A stretch of DNA of 39,270 nucleotides from the IMG/VR virus record IMGVR_UViG_3300027899_000587, positions 1 through 39,270 of that record; one strand, given 5' to 3'. This document shows, one piece after another, positions 2,752 through 26,504 of this stretch. The DNA is from a virus. The notes beneath the pieces are model-generated. The model did no database searches. It was not told the DNA's origin and saw nothing but the letters and a program-made list of their open reading frames with translations. The stretch's first letter is position 1; each line of letters starts with the position of its first letter. A program made the position numbers and the translations under genes.

Positions 2752-3654
2752 TTATGCGATATTTAATATGTCAAACATCTTCTTAAATCTTATGTCGTAT
2801 GTGTTTTCGTAGCTTTCTTTATGAGCTTTTTCTACTATCGCTTTTCGTGCTTCTTCATGCTCTAAATAATAATCTCTTAACTCCAAAGCTTCCTCAAAAG
2901 TATCAAAATATACACGATTCTTAAATAACTTTTCACAATTAGGGAATCGTTTAGTCAAAGGGAATCCATACATCGCTGGAATATTCCAAAACCTGTTTGA
3001 TGTGTAGCTGTCTATGTTGGTAAAGTGACTTATATCAAGACAAATTTTAGCCGACGAATAAATCTGTGGCATTTTTTCCATTATTTTAGCCCTTAGTCTA
3101 TCTTCAAAGCTATTAATAACCATTAATCCATTTTCCTCAAAGCGATTAATCTCTAAAGCTCTATCAATAAAGTTAGCTGATGTGATTTTTCCACCTATAA
3201 ATATAAAATCAAAAGCAAAGTGTTCGTTGTACATCGGCTTATCAAGTGGTTCTGCCCCCAAAGGTAAAAAGTGACATTCTTTTACTTTCCATATCTTCTT
3301 GTACATATTATTCTGTCCGTTATTAGATACAAACATAGCGTCTAATTCAGAACAATCTGCTGTAATTTGCGAATCCATCAATCTTAAATCGCCATACCAC
3401 ATTACAATTTTAGCTTGTGGGTTTTCTTTTCTGATTCTATCTCGCCAGTCTTTGTGTTTAACCATGTCGAGTAGTCCATAAACAATTAAATCTGGCTTAA
3501 ATTCTTGTATAGTTTCAAAGTCATGGAATGTTGGGCGACACGATAGAAATAAGTGAGGATAACCAAGACGTTTAAGTCCAGCCTTAACCCCTTTAAAGTT
3601 AGGACAATGTTTTTCAAGTTCAGGGTAATCTGCTCCCACATATACTATTCTCAT
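2752..3654 (-). CDS. CgeB-like glycosyltransferase (GT-B type)
   Basis: A 300-residue protein with the two-Rossmann layout of CgeB/YkvP-type glycosyltransferases. The N-terminal half has MRIVYVGADYPELEK and DLIVYGLLD. The C-terminal half has FDFIFIGGK, a sugar-nucleotide-side segment SYTSNRFWNIPAMYGFPL, and YFDTFEEALELRDYYLEHEEAR, which is typical of this family. The donor and acceptor cannot be told. Last gene of the glycan cassette; its start overlaps the methyltransferase stop by 4 bp (ATGA). Confidence 0.75.
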   Translation of the reverse strand: MRIVYVGADYPELEKHCPNFKGVKAGLKRLGYPHLFLSCRPTFHDFETIQEFKPDLIVYGLLDMVKHKDWRDRIRKENPQAKIVMWYGDLRLMDSQITADCSELDAMFVSNNGQNNMYKKIWKVKECHFLPLGAEPLDKPMYNEHFAFDFIFIGGKITSANFIDRALEINRFEENGLMVINSFEDRLRAKIMEKMPQIYSSAKICLDISHFTNIDSYTSNRFWNIPAMYGFPLTKRFPNCEKLFKNRVYFDTFEEALELRDYYLEHEEARKAIVEKAHKESYENTYDIRFKKMFDILNIA

Positions 3655-4094
3655 TTTATTAAAGTTACGGTTAATATCCCCCTCTCATTTTCTACAACGC
3701 TTTCCATTTTCCACGCTTTGAATCCGTAAACTGAACCATACAACTGATAGTGTCTATCACCCTCTATAAAATAATTAAACGTCGGTATTGTAAATTTCCT
3801 ACAATCCATCGGGTCTTGGTGGGCTATTGCGTATTTAGCATTAGGCACAATGATAGTTAATTTACCACCATTCTCTAAGACTCTGTGGCACTCGTTCATA
3901 GCGTTAATGAGTCCACTATTTTCTAGTATCTGCTCTAAGACTCCTGAACAATATATTTCACTTGCCGAGTTATCTTCAAAAGGAAACGTATCTGTTACAC
4001 TAAAATAATAGTCTGCTTTTGTTTCATGTGAAATGTCGGTATTTACCCAGCCATCTCTGTAATCTCTACCACAACCCAAATTTATTTTATTCAT
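3651..4094 (-). CDS. SAM-dependent class I methyltransferase
   Basis: A 147-residue protein starting with the SAM-binding motif INLGCG (residues 4-9), then an acidic DIS motif and HRVLENGGKLTIIVPNA, the post-motif region of class I methyltransferases. It is short for the fold (usually about 200-250), so it is a minimal enzyme. In this context it could methylate a sugar. It overlaps both neighbours by 4-8 bp. Confidence 0.75.
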   Translation of the reverse strand: MNKINLGCGRDYRDGWVNTDISHETKADYYFSVTDTFPFEDNSASEIYCSGVLEQILENSGLINAMNECHRVLENGGKLTIIVPNAKYAIAHQDPMDCRKFTIPTFNYFIEGDRHYQLYGSVYGFKAWKMESVVENERGILTVTLIK

Positions 4095-4872
4095 ATATTT
4101 TTTTTATTCTTGGTATTTTATGACGACCATTTAAATTTAACATTGGTGCTACCTTACCCTGTGACGCCACGTCACCACTATAAATCTCTGAACCATGAAC
4201 GAGGAATCTATTAGGGAATGAAACTATCTTGTATCCCAATTCAAGTATTTGAGATTGAAATACACACTCGTTAAATGAGGGGCTTTTGCCTGTGCCTTTC
4301 CCAACATCAAACACTGTAAGTCCTCCAATTTTATCAATCTCTTTAAGAATCTTTGCCGACGTGAATGTATAAGCACCATCTAAATTATACATCATATCTC
4401 TAGTGTGTCCCATAACTTCCCATAACTGACCACTTCCATTTTCGTCTTTACTTCTGCCCTCTACCCAATTACCAACTGCCCCTATATCTTTTGATGACAT
4501 GAACTTTAAAAGTATTTCTGATAGCCAGTTATTCTTTGCTGGGGCTATGTCGTCTTCGTTGAATAGATAGAAATCATACTTGTCACCGAACTCCTCCCAA
4601 GCTTGCTTATATGCTCCAAAACTATATCCAAAGTTTTCTTTTTTAAGAGTAATGTATGGCAAATCTGGGCAATCTCCGTGGTCAACTAAAATTATGTCGT
4701 AATCTACACCTGCCTTAAACTTCTTATGTGCGTTTAAATTCATCATCAAAGTTTCTAACTTATTCTCAATAAAATAGTTATAGTCTTTTCTAACGATATA
4801 AACTGGAATAATACAAGCTATCTTGGGCTGTACATTCGGGTGTTTAGGGTCTGTGTAAAATCCTTCTATCAT
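4087..4872 (-). CDS. GT-A type glycosyltransferase
   Basis: A 261-residue protein. An N-terminal IACIIPVYIVRKDYNYF strand, YDIILVDHGD, and an acidic metal-site candidate NEDD (residues 105-108) fit a GT-A/GT2 fold. Later segments (GAYTFTSAKILKEI, NECVFQSQILELGYKI) match the acceptor side of GT2 enzymes. Substrates are unknown. Overlaps its neighbours by 4 and 8 bp. Confidence 0.7.
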   Translation of the reverse strand: MIEGFYTDPKHPNVQPKIACIIPVYIVRKDYNYFIENKLETLMMNLNAHKKFKAGVDYDIILVDHGDCPDLPYITLKKENFGYSFGAYKQAWEEFGDKYDFYLFNEDDIAPAKNNWLSEILLKFMSSKDIGAVGNWVEGRSKDENGSGQLWEVMGHTRDMMYNLDGAYTFTSAKILKEIDKIGGLTVFDVGKGTGKSPSFNECVFQSQILELGYKIVSFPNRFLVHGSEIYSGDVASQGKVAPMLNLNGRHKIPRIKKIYE

Positions 4873-5546
4873 TTTGTTAGATATTTAAATAACTCTCTAG
4901 CGTATAATTTATCTGACTCCCTAATAGGGTCTGAATTGAACGAGTACGACCCCATATGTTCTACTCTCGTATCTTTACGCATTATCGCTCCACCTATCTT
5001 CTTAGCACGATAAGCCCACTCAGAATCTTGACCGTAAATGTAAAATCGCTCATCAAATTCTCCTATCGTTTCATAAGCAGACTTCGTAAACAAGAAACAA
5101 TAGCCACTCCAAATATCTGCGTTACGTTCAAATGATGGGTATGCTTCGGCTTGCATGACATGTTGTCTAGCACCACCTCCACATGACGATACGGGAATAA
5201 CTAGACCAGTTTCATCTATACTTTCCATCATCTTAGTCAACCAACAAGGCTCGCCCTCTTTTGTAACTGGTACAAAGGCGTCGGAGTCAATCAACATCAC
5301 ATAGTCGCATGTACTTTCTTTCACTAACTTATTCCATATCTTTGAGGTGTTTGCTGTATTAAGACGATTATCAAATACAGTCAATTTAAATGGGTGATTT
5401 GTGTTGTGAATTATCCTAGTAATTGCCTTATCAATCACCTCTGGGGCTTCTTTGAATTTAAGCATGATAATCTCAACCCTCCGAGTTTCTTTATCGTCGG
5501 TTAAAGGTTTCTCGGCCATTTGTTTCATTTCTTCTATTTTATCCAT
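4869..5546 (-). CDS. Family 2 glycosyltransferase
   Basis: A 225-residue GT2-like enzyme. Residues 55-60 (LTVFDN) and the metal-binding motif IDSDA (86-90, a DxD) are present. The QDSEW segment (173-177) corresponds to the usual ED.. catalytic region, followed by a VEHMGS ending (about 195-200). Cytosolic, with no membrane segment. It overlaps the GNAT gene by 13 bp and the next glycosyltransferase by 4 bp. Confidence 0.8.
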   Translation of the reverse strand: MDKIEEMKQMAEKPLTDDKETRRVEIIMLKFKEAPEVIDKAITRIIHNTNHPFKLTVFDNRLNTANTSKIWNKLVKESTCDYVMLIDSDAFVPVTKEGEPCWLTKMMESIDETGLVIPVSSCGGGARQHVMQAEAYPSFERNADIWSGYCFLFTKSAYETIGEFDERFYIYGQDSEWAYRAKKIGGAIMRKDTRVEHMGSYSFNSDPIRESDKLYARELFKYLTK

Positions 5547-5833
5547 AATCTATATGCGTGGTTATGTCGGTCTGTAAAACCGAGCTTCTTATAAAATGTT
5601 TGCACTTTTTCGTTGTCTTCTCTGACTGTTAATTCAATACAATCTAACTTTAAGGACTTTCCTTTCTCAATAGCTCGCTCAATTAACCTAGTGGCCCTGC
5701 CTTGATTGCGATATTCCTCCTCAGTCTTAACCTCCTCAATTACGCCCAAATACCTTGATGGTAGTTTAACTGTGTAAAGTATCAGTGATGAAACTATACG
5801 CCCTTTGATTTTGTCATTAAACTTATAAATCAT
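5534..5833 (-). CDS. GNAT N-acetyltransferase
   Basis: A 99-residue GNAT-fold protein. The acetyl-CoA loop RNQGRA (42-47) matches the R/Q-x-x-G-x-G/A motif A. The C-terminal FYKKLGF is the usual motif B ending. It is short for the family (about 140-200), so the N-terminal strands are reduced. It sits directly after a sugar aminotransferase, an order also seen for the GNAT enzyme WecD with WecE. Acetylation of an amino sugar is therefore the best guess, not proven. Confidence 0.75.
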   Translation of the reverse strand: MIYKFNDKIKGRIVSSLILYTVKLPSRYLGVIEEVKTEEEYRNQGRATRLIERAIEKGKSLKLDCIELTVREDNEKVQTFYKKLGFTDRHNHAYRLWIK

Positions 5834-6797
5834 TGACGTATTTTTTAATCTTTCTTAACGGTAGTTGCGAGTACATAGGAAGTAAACGCCAACTATCTTC
5901 TAATTTATCCATCATGGGACAATCATTTTTAAACTTCTTAAAGACTGTATATTTATCGTTCCTAAAATGATGTTGTTCACCTTGTTTGCCGTACTGAATA
6001 CATAACCATATGTGACAAGTGATATTAGGAAACGAGTTATAGTATTTCATTAGCCTTTTACGCTTGGCTATGACCTTATCAATCACAGCTAGGTTTCCTC
6101 TACCAATCGCAGCCGTGATATTGTTCATGTGCCACTTATAGCCAGCTTCCAGTAAATCTGTATCACCTAACTTCTGTTTTAGCTCTCTATCATAACCAAA
6201 CCATCTTAATCTCCTTGCTTTTTCGTAATCTTCTTTTGTTTTTGTAAGGAGAATCCCACCGTCGCCACTTGTGAGGGTTTTGATAGCTTGGAGTGATATA
6301 CAAGTGTAGTCTGCTTTACCCCAGTAATCGCTTCCGATAACTTGAGCCGCATCTTCAATGAGTGTGATGTTATGTTCTTTGCAAATCTCAAGCAACTCTC
6401 TAAGTCCTCTATTGTTTCCACCGAAGTGGACAAAGACAATGGCTTTTGTTTTTTTAGTGATTTTTCTTTTGACATCTTCTATGTTTATATTTAAGTCTAT
6501 ATCTATGTCGGCAAATACTATCTTACAACCCTTTCTAATAAGTGGTAGGTTAGTTGCTGTACATGTTAAAACTGGCGTAATAACCTCATCACCCTTTCCT
6601 ATTCCTGCAAGCTCGTAGGCAAGCTCTAGGGCTGTTGTACCACTGTTTAAGGCGACGACGTTATCAACCCCAAACTTCTGTCCAAATTCTTCCTCAAACT
6701 TCTTAACTTCCTTGCCCTCGGCAAGTTGTGAACCTAGCAATACTCTAACTACATTAAAGATTGCTCTATAACTGACGTATGGTTTAAATAATCTCAT
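5823..6797 (-). CDS. DegT/DnrJ/EryC1-type sugar aminotransferase (PLP)
   Basis: A 324-residue PLP enzyme expected to convert a keto-sugar nucleotide to an amino sugar. Visible are ALNSGTTALELA (49-60), GDEVITP, the PLP ring-contact motif EDAAQ (148-152, D149), and the Schiff-base lysine in SLQAIKTLTSGDGG (K173). It is somewhat shorter than the usual 370-400 residues. It overlaps the dehydratase by 4 bp and the GNAT by 11 bp, which suggests a three-step pathway. Confidence 0.9.
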   Translation of the reverse strand: MRLFKPYVSYRAIFNVVRVLLGSQLAEGKEVKKFEEEFGQKFGVDNVVALNSGTTALELAYELAGIGKGDEVITPVLTCTATNLPLIRKGCKIVFADIDIDLNINIEDVKRKITKKTKAIVFVHFGGNNRGLRELLEICKEHNITLIEDAAQVIGSDYWGKADYTCISLQAIKTLTSGDGGILLTKTKEDYEKARRLRWFGYDRELKQKLGDTDLLEAGYKWHMNNITAAIGRGNLAVIDKVIAKRKRLMKYYNSFPNITCHIWLCIQYGKQGEQHHFRNDKYTVFKKFKNDCPMMDKLEDSWRLLPMYSQLPLRKIKKYVNDL

Positions 6798-7708
6798 TGT
6801 AAATAATCGGTTAAAGATTCCTCAAATGAATAACGTGGAGTCCAACCTAACTCCCTTAGTCTTGAAGAATCCATTTGATAAATTGAGTCCATTCCCTCTC
6901 GATGTGAATCGTGTACGGTACATTTCTTCTTAGTAATACTCTGTGCCTTGCCTATCAACTCATTTACGCTGTACAAATCATTGTTAGTGACGTTGTAAGT
7001 TCTATGACCTTTTTCCAACACTAACTTAATCATTGGAGGGACATTTTTAACGTATAAATACTCTCTATAACCTACTCCACCGTTATGAAGTGGTATTGAA
7101 TAGTTACCCTCTAGGCTTTCCTTAATAGCTGGCATGATTTTACGCTTATCTTGACGCTCTCCAAAGATATTGCACATGCGAATCTCAGTGGTTTTGTCTT
7201 TTAACTCTGGGAATGAGTTATCAAATGCCAATCTCATCAAAGAACCAACTGCCTTTGAACATGAGTATGGATTTTTAGGAAAAATTATATCAGTTTCGTT
7301 TTTCTTAATCTCACACTCTCCATAAATTTCATCAGTTGATACATATAAAAGCTTTTTAAGACTAGGTAAGTCCCTGCACGCTTCAAATACGTTCAGATTT
7401 GCCAAAATATTGGCTTCTAAGACGTGATAAGGGTATTTTATGGAATAATCTACATCTGAATACGCACCTGCGTGTACAACGTACTGTGGGGCTTCTGAGC
7501 GTATGACCTCAATTACCTCTCTACTTGATAAATCCATCTCATAAAACTTAAAATTGTCATACTTCTTCCATTCTTCTAATAGTTCAGGGTGCGAACCTGC
7601 TGAAAGGTTATCAATTCCAACTACTTGCCAACCTAACTCTAAAAAGTAGTCTGTGACGTGTGAGAAAATGAACCCACAATTTCCCGTTAAAAGTAGTTTA
7701 TTTTTCAT
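6794..7708 (-). CDS. NAD-dependent sugar-nucleotide 4,6-dehydratase-like SDR
   Basis: A 304-residue extended SDR. The NAD-binding motif is TGNCGFIFSH (8-17), where the third glycine of the usual GxxGFIG is replaced by F. The catalytic STDEIYG (124-130) carries the Thr-Asp-Glu of 4,6-dehydratases rather than epimerases. The YxxxK pair is Y148/K152. It probably supplies the 4-keto-6-deoxy sugar for the neighbouring aminotransferase. No sugar nucleotidyltransferase is present, so the host would provide the substrate. Confidence 0.8.
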   Translation of the reverse strand: MKNKLLLTGNCGFIFSHVTDYFLELGWQVVGIDNLSAGSHPELLEEWKKYDNFKFYEMDLSSREVIEVIRSEAPQYVVHAGAYSDVDYSIKYPYHVLEANILANLNVFEACRDLPSLKKLLYVSTDEIYGECEIKKNETDIIFPKNPYSCSKAVGSLMRLAFDNSFPELKDKTTEIRMCNIFGERQDKRKIMPAIKESLEGNYSIPLHNGGVGYREYLYVKNVPPMIKLVLEKGHRTYNVTNNDLYSVNELIGKAQSITKKKCTVHDSHREGMDSIYQMDSSRLRELGWTPRYSFEESLTDYLQ

Positions 7709-8615
7709 TTTTTAAATTTGGTTGTGGTATTGGGTCAACCTTTGGTTTGTCACCGAATAATTCCTCCATTTTAGCTTTGTTGTCATCTTCATATCCTATA
7801 AATGTGAATCCTTTTCTTTTAAGTGTTTCTGCCATGTCCTTCTCGGGTATATCGTAAATATATCCTGATGGATTCCTGACATAAACAAATCTTTTCTTTA
7901 TAGCTGGCATAAATTTTTTAATCATTGGATTACTTTCTTTTTTAATTGCATTTCTAATAAATTCCTCATCAATCGGCTCGCAAGTATCAGACTTTAAGGC
8001 TTCATAATAGCTTCTATCACGATACTTTGCCTTTGGGTCATACTTCTCATACCTCTCAACTTTCCTTTGGCGTGCGTCTTTATCTTTTAACCCATAGTGC
8101 CAAAGCAGTATTGGCACATAAGAGCCATAATTATACGCCCACTCTGGGGCAAGCCCACAATGAAGCGGTCTATTGATAAACTTGCAATTACCATTCCACT
8201 TCCAAGCTCTTATATTCCAAAAGCTCCACGCCTTTTTCCAACCATCATTCCATAGATTGGCAATATAAACATACATTGAGTCTGTTTTATCCATTAAAAG
8301 CTCTAAATCTTCTCTTGAAACGTCTAAGACCTCATCCATATCAAGACAAACAAGCCACTCTGGTCTATAAGCTTCTAAAGATTCCACAAAATCTTGTTTA
8401 ATTTTGTTCTGATTTAATCCCCATTCTCGATTATCCTTTCGTAACTCAAACCCATAGCTTGCTATCAAGTCCTCACTTGCCCTATCTATGTTGTTACCCA
8501 TTATAACTACTCTATCGCACAACTTTTTAAAGCAATCTAAAGTGCCTTTGAGGTAACGTTCGTTAGCCCCACATATTCCGTAACCAATGATATTATAGCG
8601 ATTTGAGGTACTCAT
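7698..8615 (-). CDS. Glycosyltransferase with an added C-terminal phage-type domain
   Basis: A 305-residue protein. The N-terminal part is GT2-like: YNIIGYGICGANERYL, RVVIMGNNIDRASEDLI and the DxD motif LDMDE (91-95). The C-terminal part (about 242-305) is different. It contains FVYVRNPSGYIYDIP and AETLKRKGFTFIGYEDD, resembling small virion-associated proteins, then a proline-rich tail. Its start lies 22 bp inside the preceding head-region gene, so it is translated with virion genes. Substrate unknown. Confidence 0.7.
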   Translation of the reverse strand: MSTSNRYNIIGYGICGANERYLKGTLDCFKKLCDRVVIMGNNIDRASEDLIASYGFELRKDNREWGLNQNKIKQDFVESLEAYRPEWLVCLDMDEVLDVSREDLELLMDKTDSMYVYIANLWNDGWKKAWSFWNIRAWKWNGNCKFINRPLHCGLAPEWAYNYGSYVPILLWHYGLKDKDARQRKVERYEKYDPKAKYRDRSYYEALKSDTCEPIDEEFIRNAIKKESNPMIKKFMPAIKKRFVYVRNPSGYIYDIPEKDMAETLKRKGFTFIGYEDDNKAKMEELFGDKPKVDPIPQPNLKNEK

Positions 8616-15445: not shown

Positions 15446-15455
15446 GTTTTCCACA
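15446..15455 (+). promoter_or_regulatory. GTTTTCCACA box (DnaA-box-like)
   Basis: TTTTCCACA fits the bacterial DnaA-box consensus TTWTNCACA. It lies 28 bp upstream of the first early promoter. Three more copies precede other early promoters (16105, 17534 and 20328). Confidence 0.5.
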
Positions 15456-15937: not shown

Positions 15938-16090
15938 ATGAAAAATAAAAACGCACAGGCTCTAGGCTCACTCGGTGGAAAAGCTAAATCACTTAAAATG
16001 ACAGCAGAAGAACGTAAAGAAATGGCAAGTAGAATAGCAAAGATTAGATGGGAGAAGTACAGAGCATTAAAAGCAATCAAGTCCGAATAG
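15938..16090 (+). CDS. Small basic GGKA-motif protein
   Basis: A 50-residue very basic protein with ALGSLGGKAKSLKMTAEERKEM, resembling short 'GGKA..' proteins common in phages and plasmids whose role is unknown (perhaps DNA binding). It starts 1 bp after the previous stop, and its own stop codon lies in the hairpin of the terminator at 16079. Confidence 0.6.
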   Translation: MKNKNAQALGSLGGKAKSLKMTAEERKEMASRIAKIRWEKYRALKAIKSE

Positions 16091-16099
16091 GACTTTTTT
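16079..16099 (+). terminator. Rho-independent terminator
   Basis: AAGTCC-GAATA-GGACTT stem-loop (16079-16095) followed by a run of T to 16099. It closes the two-gene unit of promoter 1 just before the promoter of the replication gene. Confidence 0.7.
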
Positions 16100-16104
16100 G
16101 TTTA

Positions 16105-16114
16105 TGTGGAAAAC
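16105..16114 (-). promoter_or_regulatory. TTTTCCACA box, inverted
   Basis: TGTGGAAAAC on the plus strand is the reverse complement of GTTTTCCACA. It lies 4 bp upstream of the -35 of the replication-gene promoter, the only copy in reverse orientation. Confidence 0.5.
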
Positions 16115-16118
16115 TTAT

Positions 16119-16146
16119 TTGCAGTTACTTATGGAAGTGATAAAAT
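16119..16146 (+). promoter_or_regulatory. Promoter of the replication initiator gene
   Basis: TTGCAG (16119-16124), 16-bp spacer, TAAAAT (16141-16146) with a TGA extended -10. A short palindrome ACTT-ATGG-AAGT (16127-16138) lies in the spacer. Transcription should start near 16153, just ahead of the pseudoknot. Confidence 0.65.
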
Positions 16147-16171
16147 AGAGATGTCGGAATTATTAAGATAA

Positions 16172-16233
16172 CTTTTGCGTCTTATGTTCTGCTAATTTAC
16201 TTACTCGCAAAAGGGGTAGGTTAGTGGAACATA
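16172..16233 (+). promoter_or_regulatory. Predicted H-type pseudoknot in the initiator leader
   Basis: CTTTTGCG (16172-16179) pairs with CGCAAAAG (16206-16213); TATGTTC (16183-16189) pairs with GAACATA (16227-16233). The order A-B-A'-B' makes a pseudoknot with perfect stems of 8 and 7 bp and loops of 3, 16 and 13 nt. The last loop holds the GGGTAGG ribosome-site candidate and GTG start at 16224. A six-codon ORF (16151-16171) ends right against the first stem, but its ATG may lie upstream of the transcription start. Confidence 0.55.
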
Positions 16234-16973
16234 GGGCAATTAAAAATATGAAATGGTTTAAATTTTACGGTCAGGATTTCTTGACGGACTCTAAAATGAG
16301 AATTTTAACTGTTGAGGAAAAGATGTGTTGGGTAGTACTAATGTGTCTAGCCAACTCTGAGGACAAAGACGGGAAGATTTTATTCTTGAATGAAGATGAG
16401 GTAATGAAACAAGCAGGCATAGAATACGACACTCCAATGTGGTCTGCTACAAAGGGTTTCTTAGATAAATTTGTAGAATTAAGAATGATAGAGATAGACG
16501 TAACAAACGTAACACAGGGCGTAACGCAGAGTAACAAAGCTGTACGTTACGATGTAACATTAACTAATTTTGATAGGCGACAAACAGAGAATTTAAGCAA
16601 CGCTGAACGCCAAAAAAGACATAGAGAAAAGTTAAAGGAAGGGCTAAGTATAAAGACAAAAGTACGTAACGATAGTAACGTAACACAACGTAACGATAGT
16701 AACGCTAGAATAGATAAGAATAGAATAGAAAAGAATATACATAACATACAGTACGGCGAACTAAAAAAAGTAAGTTTAGCTAGTGAAGAGTATGAAAGAC
16801 TTGTAGACTTATTCGGACAAACTGGAGTAGATGTTTTAATTTTTGAGTTAGATACCTACATCGCTTCAAGTGGTAAAAAATACAAATCTCACTATGCAAC
16901 ACTTCTTAACTGGGCTAAAAGAAAATTTGACCAAAAACAATTACAAACTAAAGGGCGAGGACTCGCACAATAA
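16224..16973 (+). CDS. DnaD-type replication initiator / replisome organiser
   Basis: A 249-residue protein (from GTG 16224). MKWFKFYGQDFLTDSKM (from 9) through DEVMKQAGIEYD and WSATKGFLDKFVELRMIEI is the winged-helix N-terminal domain of phage replisome organisers. A charged, Asn/Arg-rich linker follows, then KKYKSHYATLLNWAKRK. It would load host replication proteins at the phage origin. GTG 16224 has the better ribosome site (AAGGGG) and lies in the pseudoknot; ATG 16248 is the family's usual start. Confidence 0.8.
   Translation: MEHRAIKNMKWFKFYGQDFLTDSKMRILTVEEKMCWVVLMCLANSEDKDGKILFLNEDEVMKQAGIEYDTPMWSATKGFLDKFVELRMIEIDVTNVTQGVTQSNKAVRYDVTLTNFDRRQTENLSNAERQKRHREKLKEGLSIKTKVRNDSNVTQRNDSNARIDKNRIEKNIHNIQYGELKKVSLASEEYERLVDLFGQTGVDVLIFELDTYIASSGKKYKSHYATLLNWAKRKFDQKQLQTKGRGLAQ
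16499..16704 (+). repeat. CGTAAC iteron cluster inside the initiator gene (origin candidate)
   Basis: CGTAAC occurs at 16499, 16508, 16520, 16665, 16679 and 16689 and inverted at 16546. A perfect 17-bp direct repeat, ACGTAACGATAGTAACG, lies at 16664-16680 and 16688-16704 (24 bp apart). Iterons in the initiator's own linker coding region are known from lambda gene O. The repeats might instead reflect low-complexity coding. Confidence 0.45.
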
Positions 16974-26417: not shown

Positions 26418-26504
26418 TGGTGGTAAATAACAGAGTCGAACTGTCAGTCTATCTTGTTCCCCTTTCGGGTACAGAAGAGTGTTTTCCCGTTAAACTAATT
26501 TACC
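26418..26504 (-). tRNA. tRNA-like gene with a 19-nt anticodon loop
   Basis: On the minus strand, acceptor arms GGTAAAT (26498-26504) and ATTTACC (26422-26428) pair perfectly, followed by A-CCA. The D-arm is GTTT/AAAC with G18G19; the T-arm is GACAG-TTCGACT-CTGTT. The anticodon stem CTCTT/AAGAT holds a 19-nt loop with an internal CCC-GAAA-GGG hairpin. Removing 12 nt gives CTGTAAC (anticodon GTA, Tyr) or CTGGAAC (GGA, Ser). The variable loop is only 5 nt, unlike bacterial tRNA-Tyr and tRNA-Ser. Confidence 0.6.

Follow-up and report, generated by a model that had tools for sequence, protein, structure and literature searches.

Among described systems, those that appear nearest in logic to the element reported here are the leader of the replication initiator in I-complex plasmids and the leader of the maturation gene in phage MS2. 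In I-complex plasmids, the initiator is expressed only when a leader peptide is translated, according to PMC10286972, and the pseudoknot is called a molecular switch in the title of a reference listed in PMC10724649. In the MS2 maturation leader, a transient hairpin delays the formation of a stable closing structure (PMC6582335). Here we describe a putative regulatory RNA directly upstream of the replication initiator gene in the window, which is the whole 39,270-base IMG/VR virus record IMGVR_UViG_3300027899_000587. Going by folding models and comparison with related phages, we hold it somewhat probable that positions 16151–16247 are the 5′ leader of the initiator messenger RNA (mRNA) and act as a translation-coupled, co-transcriptional folding gate that limits initiator synthesis. 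We know of little that describes how initiator dosage is controlled in lytic phages of uncultured bacteria. The element consists of four segments, which precede the initiator gene as follows, with lengths in nucleotides (nt):

16172..16179, + strand: segment A, CTTTTGCG; the identical 8 nt are present in L107–L110
16179..16202, + strand: segment B, 5′ arm of a 24-pair hairpin; position 16179 is common to A
16206..16213, + strand: segment A′, CGCAAAAG, in the hairpin loop
16214..16237, + strand: segment B′, 3′ arm of the same hairpin; 10 nt separate its end from ATG 16248
16248..16973, + strand: replication initiator (replisome organizer), MKWFKFYGQDFLTD..., 241 amino acids, PHROG 13246

Like the RepY/RepB-RepZ/RepA leaders of IncI-alpha/IncB plasmids, the element lies in the 5′ leader that precedes a replication initiator gene. 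In 16 of 28 related leaders, not in the window, a leader open reading frame (ORF) spans the structure and stops by the initiator start, and a pseudoknot-type complementarity between loop and leader (A:A′ crossing B:B′) is present in the window and reaches p ≤ 0.05 in 16 of 28. Unlike the plasmid leaders, the element shows no sign of an antisense RNA (antisense promoter-like sites at p ≤ 0.05 in 0 of 24 elements), its helices are much longer and mutually exclusive, and its initiators are of the phage O/DnaD types (PHROG 13246 in the window), not RepA/RepZ; the leader ORF of the window has only six codons and ends before A. Like the MS2 maturation-gene leader, the element has, in silico, an early hairpin that is replaced by a more stable late one upstream of a start codon. 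MS2, however, belongs to the RNA phages and has a different closing structure. In the leaders described here, the 5′ arm of the late hairpin lies inside the early hairpin, and leader ORFs run across the element.

In the window, stem A pairs CTTTTGCG (16172–16179) with CGCAAAAG (16206–16213), the core of stem B pairs TATGTTC (16183–16189) with GAACATA (16227–16233), and the order A-B-A′-B′ makes the two stems interleave, just as an earlier note on this DNA had drawn them. Perfect stems of 8 and 7 base pairs (bp) within 62 nt are found at a single place on the + strand of the window; because 0.35 such places are expected per strand (mean of 20 dinucleotide-shuffled windows), the 8 + 7 bp pattern is by itself not beyond chance. 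When G-U pairs are allowed, stem B grows into the 24-pair hairpin (16179–16202/16214–16237; 6 G-C and 8 G-U pairs), whose 3′ end is 10 nt upstream of ATG 16248 and whose loop carries A′, complementary to A immediately 5′ of the hairpin. RNA folding of 16183–16233 gives a minimum free energy of –21.4 kcal/mol (z score –6.5, 0 of 200 shuffles equal) and folding of 16060–16300 gives a z score of –5.5 (again 0 of 200). It is the extended B hairpin, not the 8 + 7 bp pattern, that is beyond chance. With B held fixed, the A:A′ match of the window has p = 0.020 against shuffled flank and loop, and A:A′ is also backed by relatives. An architecture scan of both strands of the window returned one match, compared to 0.1 per strand in shuffles. 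In the viral contig collection, the pattern of the conserved A/A′ flanks matches only four contigs, those of L107–L110.

The spacers between A and B and between A′ and B′ are about 0 nt, so complete A:A′ and complete B:B′ are mutually exclusive. From this geometry, the two full helices would be alternatives, joined at most as a partial pseudoknot that comes near the drawing in the earlier note and would be an intermediate at most. That drawing was of a stable H-type pseudoknot of 8 + 7 bp, which, with or without a ligand, would sequester the initiator start. Its A-B-A′-B′ order with loops of 3, 16 and 13 nt is sterically feasible and the crossing helices are conserved; however, B has 24 pairs, full B:B′ excludes A:A′, and nested folds that contain A:A′ fall far short of the closed hairpin in stability (in the window, –10.6 kcal/mol for the best of them compared to –30.1 kcal/mol for the hairpin, about 19 apart). 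In L108, moreover, the loops around A′ are only 3 and 0 nt, and a ligand is unlikely because no conserved sequence pocket was seen. We find a stable pseudoknot improbable; the crossing topology stands, and the static 8 + 7 bp H-type structure does not.

To follow the folding path, we computed nested equilibrium folds of growing prefixes for 22 elements that were chosen as clear. At the point where A′ is complete, the minimum-energy fold contains A:A′ in 20 of the 22 elements. At full length, B:B′ has replaced A:A′ in 21 of 22; L197 keeps A, and L162 reaches exactly half of B. Between these states, 9–43 more nucleotides are required before B exceeds 50%. In these models, A:A′ is early and B:B′ late in the growing RNA. 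We propose that B:B′ would be the closed state, which keeps ribosomes from entering at the initiator AUG in a host mostly without Shine-Dalgarno sites, and that A:A′ would form early, last briefly, mask the leader start and hold B unpaired. A ribosome that reaches the leader ORF early enough would melt B:B′, finish beside the initiator AUG and open it by coupling, and initiator output per transcript would be confined to an early, translation-dependent interval. In the window version, a terminating ribosome would cover A and not run through B because the leader ORF has six codons that end against A; here the gate may act via occupancy of A and delayed folding only, or it may be partly decayed.

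The architecture recurs in related phages. The L002 initiator is 39% identical to that of the window and the L084 initiator is 68% identical in its N-terminal part; L002 has a 25-pair and L084 a 23-pair hairpin, both ending 4 nt before the ATG, and in both the hairpin loop is complementary to the bases that immediately precede the 5′ arm. Among initiator families, the letters of the element are unrelated while the A-B-A′-B′ topology recurs. When we scanned the window together with 15 related phage contigs (582 kb), we found 16 matches compared to 1.0 expected from shuffles. Thirteen of the 16 have a B of at least 18 pairs, which was never reached in three-fold shuffles, where all matches had a B of 15. 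Seven of these 13 strong elements lie directly before a replication initiator of one of three types (MKWFKFYGQD, MASPQKENG and MQNNGWIKLHRK), and two others precede an ORF of 70–72 amino acids that is followed by an initiator. The 16 contigs were partly picked because the element had already been noticed, so these counts describe placement, not prevalence. Placement of the element is specific: strong crossing helices (A ≤ –10 and B ≤ –22 kcal/mol, equalled by none of 60 shuffles) are found at 13 of the 811 ORF starts tested in these contigs, and initiators account for 11 of the 13.

To estimate prevalence, we used an O-type initiator search that gathered 63 loci regardless of the element, 54 of them distinct and with a 130 nt leader (nine were left out as duplicates, for lack of a start codon or as too short). 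Crossing-helix scores form two groups (bimodal): all 60 shuffles are beaten by 19 of the 54 leaders, and the remainder are mostly at shuffle level. Because some of the 19 (e.g. L195 and L196) are hairpins with an unconvincing A, we tested A with B fixed in all leaders whose B is at or below –18 kcal/mol, 28 in number (27 of 61 scored leaders plus L108). In 16 of the 28, A beats shuffles of flank and loop at p ≤ 0.05 (one at about 0.050), and in 8 at p ≤ 0.01, compared to 2 and 0 of 28 for a mirror-topology control. Across 85 long hairpins, the loop matches the 5′ flank over at least 7 nt in 14; permuted flanks give about 2.8 and the 3′ flank gives 7.

Pairs of relatives reveal how the stems change. 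Between L184 and L192, stem A has two two-sided changes, one one-sided and none broken, and stem B has four two-sided, two one-sided and none broken. Between L164 and L198, stem A has one two-sided change and one pair broken at the stem end, and stem B, of 29, has three two-sided, four one-sided, one broken and one unpaired in both. In the window and L108, A, A′ and their flanks are identical; stem B, with the arms aligned by hand, has five two-sided changes, four one-sided and one broken among 19 compared. In many phages, compensatory change preserves the topology even as the sequence diverges. The earlier note had named compensatory changes in relatives as a check and unpaired changes in both stems as counter-evidence; the former are found in both stems (L184/L192 and L164/L198), and relatives keep both stems. 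Its claim of an RNA-level control element over the initiator translation start is supported as well.

In 16 of the 28 leaders, a leader ORF of 29–45 codons runs through the whole element and ends beside the initiator start, compared to 2.95 in shuffles. Its ATG is 19–52 nt upstream of B, and its stop falls from 26 nt before to 8 nt after the initiator start. L108 has, by eye, the same layout with a GTG start. In L002 and L094, the ATG is 6 nt downstream of a TATAAT hexamer, so the leader ORF may be leaderless. Mutually exclusive helices with a leader ORF are also the classic layout of transcription attenuation, the main rival, in which B:B′ would be an intrinsic terminator before the initiator, A:A′ the antiterminator, and leader translation would set the balance. 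For the tails and promoters, we used 24 strong elements, the 28 minus the doubtful L195, L196, L085 and L169. A U-run is present at the end of or after B′ in 12 of the 24; however, shuffles of the same AT-rich stretch already give 7.7 of 24, and no U-run follows B′ in the window, L108 or L084, while L002 has only a broken one. Like amino-acid and ribosome-mediated attenuators, the element combines a leader peptide with mutually exclusive hairpins. Attenuators have a 1:2/2:3/3:4 helix series; in contrast, here there are two crossing helices only, no control codons were seen, and a terminator-like tail is present in only half of the elements and not in the window. On this evidence, attenuation is unlikely.

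Forward promoter-like sites are enriched at the elements (10 of 24 at p ≤ 0.05), and antisense promoter-like sites show no enrichment (0 of 24 at p ≤ 0.05; p = 0.67 in the window). These data bear on an antisense-controlled replicon of the IncI/IncB or R1 type, in which a countertranscript would pair with the hairpin and block translation of leader and initiator. Such replicons likewise combine a leader ORF, a complementary loop and an initiator gene, but apart from the promoter result the B arms hold 72 G-U pairs compared to 4 A-C (the search itself scores G-U as pairs), so the antisense strand folds poorly; we consider antisense control very improbable. The likeness to RepZ control proposed in the earlier note holds for the leader ORF and crossing helices and fails for the antisense promoter. 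The G-U count, with the same proviso about the search, also shows that the stems depend on the coding strand, and the sequence is not conserved between elements. Both points oppose a DNA-level element (protein-binding inverted repeats or an origin hairpin), to which the replication initiator and the DnaA-box-like sites and iterons nearby might point and to which we assign next to no probability. The B duplexes span 18–26 pairs, which is RNase III size, and the duplex could be a processing site whose cleavage matures the initiator mRNA or makes it less stable, with A:A′ secondary. This would leave the loop-to-flank complementarity and the leader ORF unexplained and seems to us a very slim prospect.

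Upstream of and across the element, the window carries the following features:

16079..16095, + strand: terminator-like hairpin with a T-run, closing the upstream transcription unit
16118..16146, + strand: sigma-70-like promoter TTTGCA-17-TAAAAT, its second hexamer preceded by TG (extended –10; 9 of 12 matches)
16151..16171, + strand: six-codon ORF MSELLR (stop), ATG 16151 to TAA 16171, ending directly before A
16153..16224, + strand: open frame through the element with stop TAG 16222–16224, read by eye

The promoter-like site at 16118–16146 has p = 0.07 compared to shuffles and suggests a transcription start at about 16153, which would place the element at the extreme 5′ end of the initiator mRNA; a start downstream of 16180, which would speak against the pseudoknot according to the earlier note, is not what this upstream site predicts. 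The six-codon ORF (ATG 16151–TAA 16171) does abut the first stem as that note described. It looks like a truncated counterpart of the 29–45 codon leader ORFs of relatives, and it may represent a short version that still works, a decayed one or an error in the sequence. The frame at 16153–16224 has no ATG, GTG or TTG start and is out of frame with ATG 16151; its stop is 13 nt upstream of the end of B′. Between A′ and the core of B′ are GTG 16224 and a GG-rich stretch, in which the earlier note had seen the initiator start and a ribosome site. We dropped this start: the codon aligned with ATG 16248 is the start in L002, L084, L085 and L086, which have the peptide MKWFKFYGQD in common. A Shine-Dalgarno sequence is missing at most gene starts of the window contig, which leaves the proposed site unsupported as well. 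The window initiator matches the PHROG 13246 replisome organizer (E = 3.6e-13), and no RepA family was found for it in Pfam. The terminase of the window resembles those of Bacteroidota phages only distantly (at most about 43%), and the promoters are sigma-70-like.

Several observations weigh against a translation-coupled folding gate. Given B, the A:A′ match is individually weak (p > 0.05) in 12 of the 28 leaders, and the broken pairs of L164/L198 (one at the end of stem A and a single one in stem B) and of stem B in window/L108 interrupt otherwise maintained helices. L085 and L086, relatives with the same initiator, are without a convincing A:A′ or the entire element, and 4 of the 13 strong elements lie away from any initiator operon. 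The window itself is without a leader ORF through the element. The U-runs in 12 of 24 elements fit terminators equally, and the folding path is one of equilibrium, not true kinetics, in which the pseudoknot is not scored.

Beyond the window, we are evenly divided on whether these leaders represent a widespread class of regulatory RNA in phages, one defined by topology and not by sequence. Such RNAs would be co-transcriptional folding timers that set how much initiator is made, and they would have been gained, or have arisen, separately in at least three initiator families and now and then in other phage genes. With the same balance of belief and doubt, members of the class would have A-B-A′-B′ usually inside a leader ORF, from near the transcript 5′ end to the initiator start. 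In Rfam 15, no family other than transfer RNAs (tRNAs) is above the gathering threshold for the window or the 28 related loci. An E-value search of Rfam with 16050–16300 gave four weak matches, to eukaryotic microRNA/long non-coding RNA families and one small RNA, all far below threshold, and these were set aside. No description of such a leader for phage initiators was found in the literature, with subscription papers and preprints outside coverage. A leader with conserved topology and free sequence would escape covariance-model libraries because it offers little sequence to align. If the gate acts as proposed, the plasmid copy-number logic of leader peptide and pseudoknot would extend to phages, and these leaders would be compact natural co-transcriptional RNA switches that are open to simple reporter fusions.

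In the gut phages L156 and L157, which are related in the C-terminal part of the initiator, and in L158, no convincing element was found. L086, the only genome-contig match, is a phage-type initiator without the element; its contig was binned with a Nitrososphaeraceae archaeon and is probably a misbinned phage contig. L099 has two different elements (1170–1264 and 1776–1862) about 600 nt apart, each with its own A, B and leader ORF. Strong elements that are not at an initiator are also present in L020 (1910–1970) at the start of an early operon, in L027 (16828–16887) upstream of a scaffold-like gene, and on the minus strand of contig G005 (L134/L135; 2752–2807) before a 73-amino-acid ORF and a glycosyltransferase-like gene.

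Within the initiator gene of the window, an origin-like array at 16498–16745 consists of CGTAACG-type iterons followed by AGAATAG repeats; the array holds 4 of the 6 window copies of the iteron, with 1.16 expected in the window, and the DNA string ACGCTAGAATAGATAAGA is common to the L084 and L002 contigs. TTTTCCACA sites, which we take to be DnaA-box-like, are present at 15447, 16105, 17535 and 20329 (4 compared to 1.07 expected, 0 of 100 shuffles reach 4), and three of the four adjoin promoter-like sites of the early region. Elsewhere in the window, a tRNA gene at 26418–26504 (– strand; Rfam tRNA 47.9 bits) has a four-base anticodon (gtac) according to ARAGORN. On the – strand at 2752–8615, a sugar-modifying gene cluster lies within the structural gene strand; its genes are glycosyltransferase-, aminotransferase- and epimerase-like, judged by eye from their translations.
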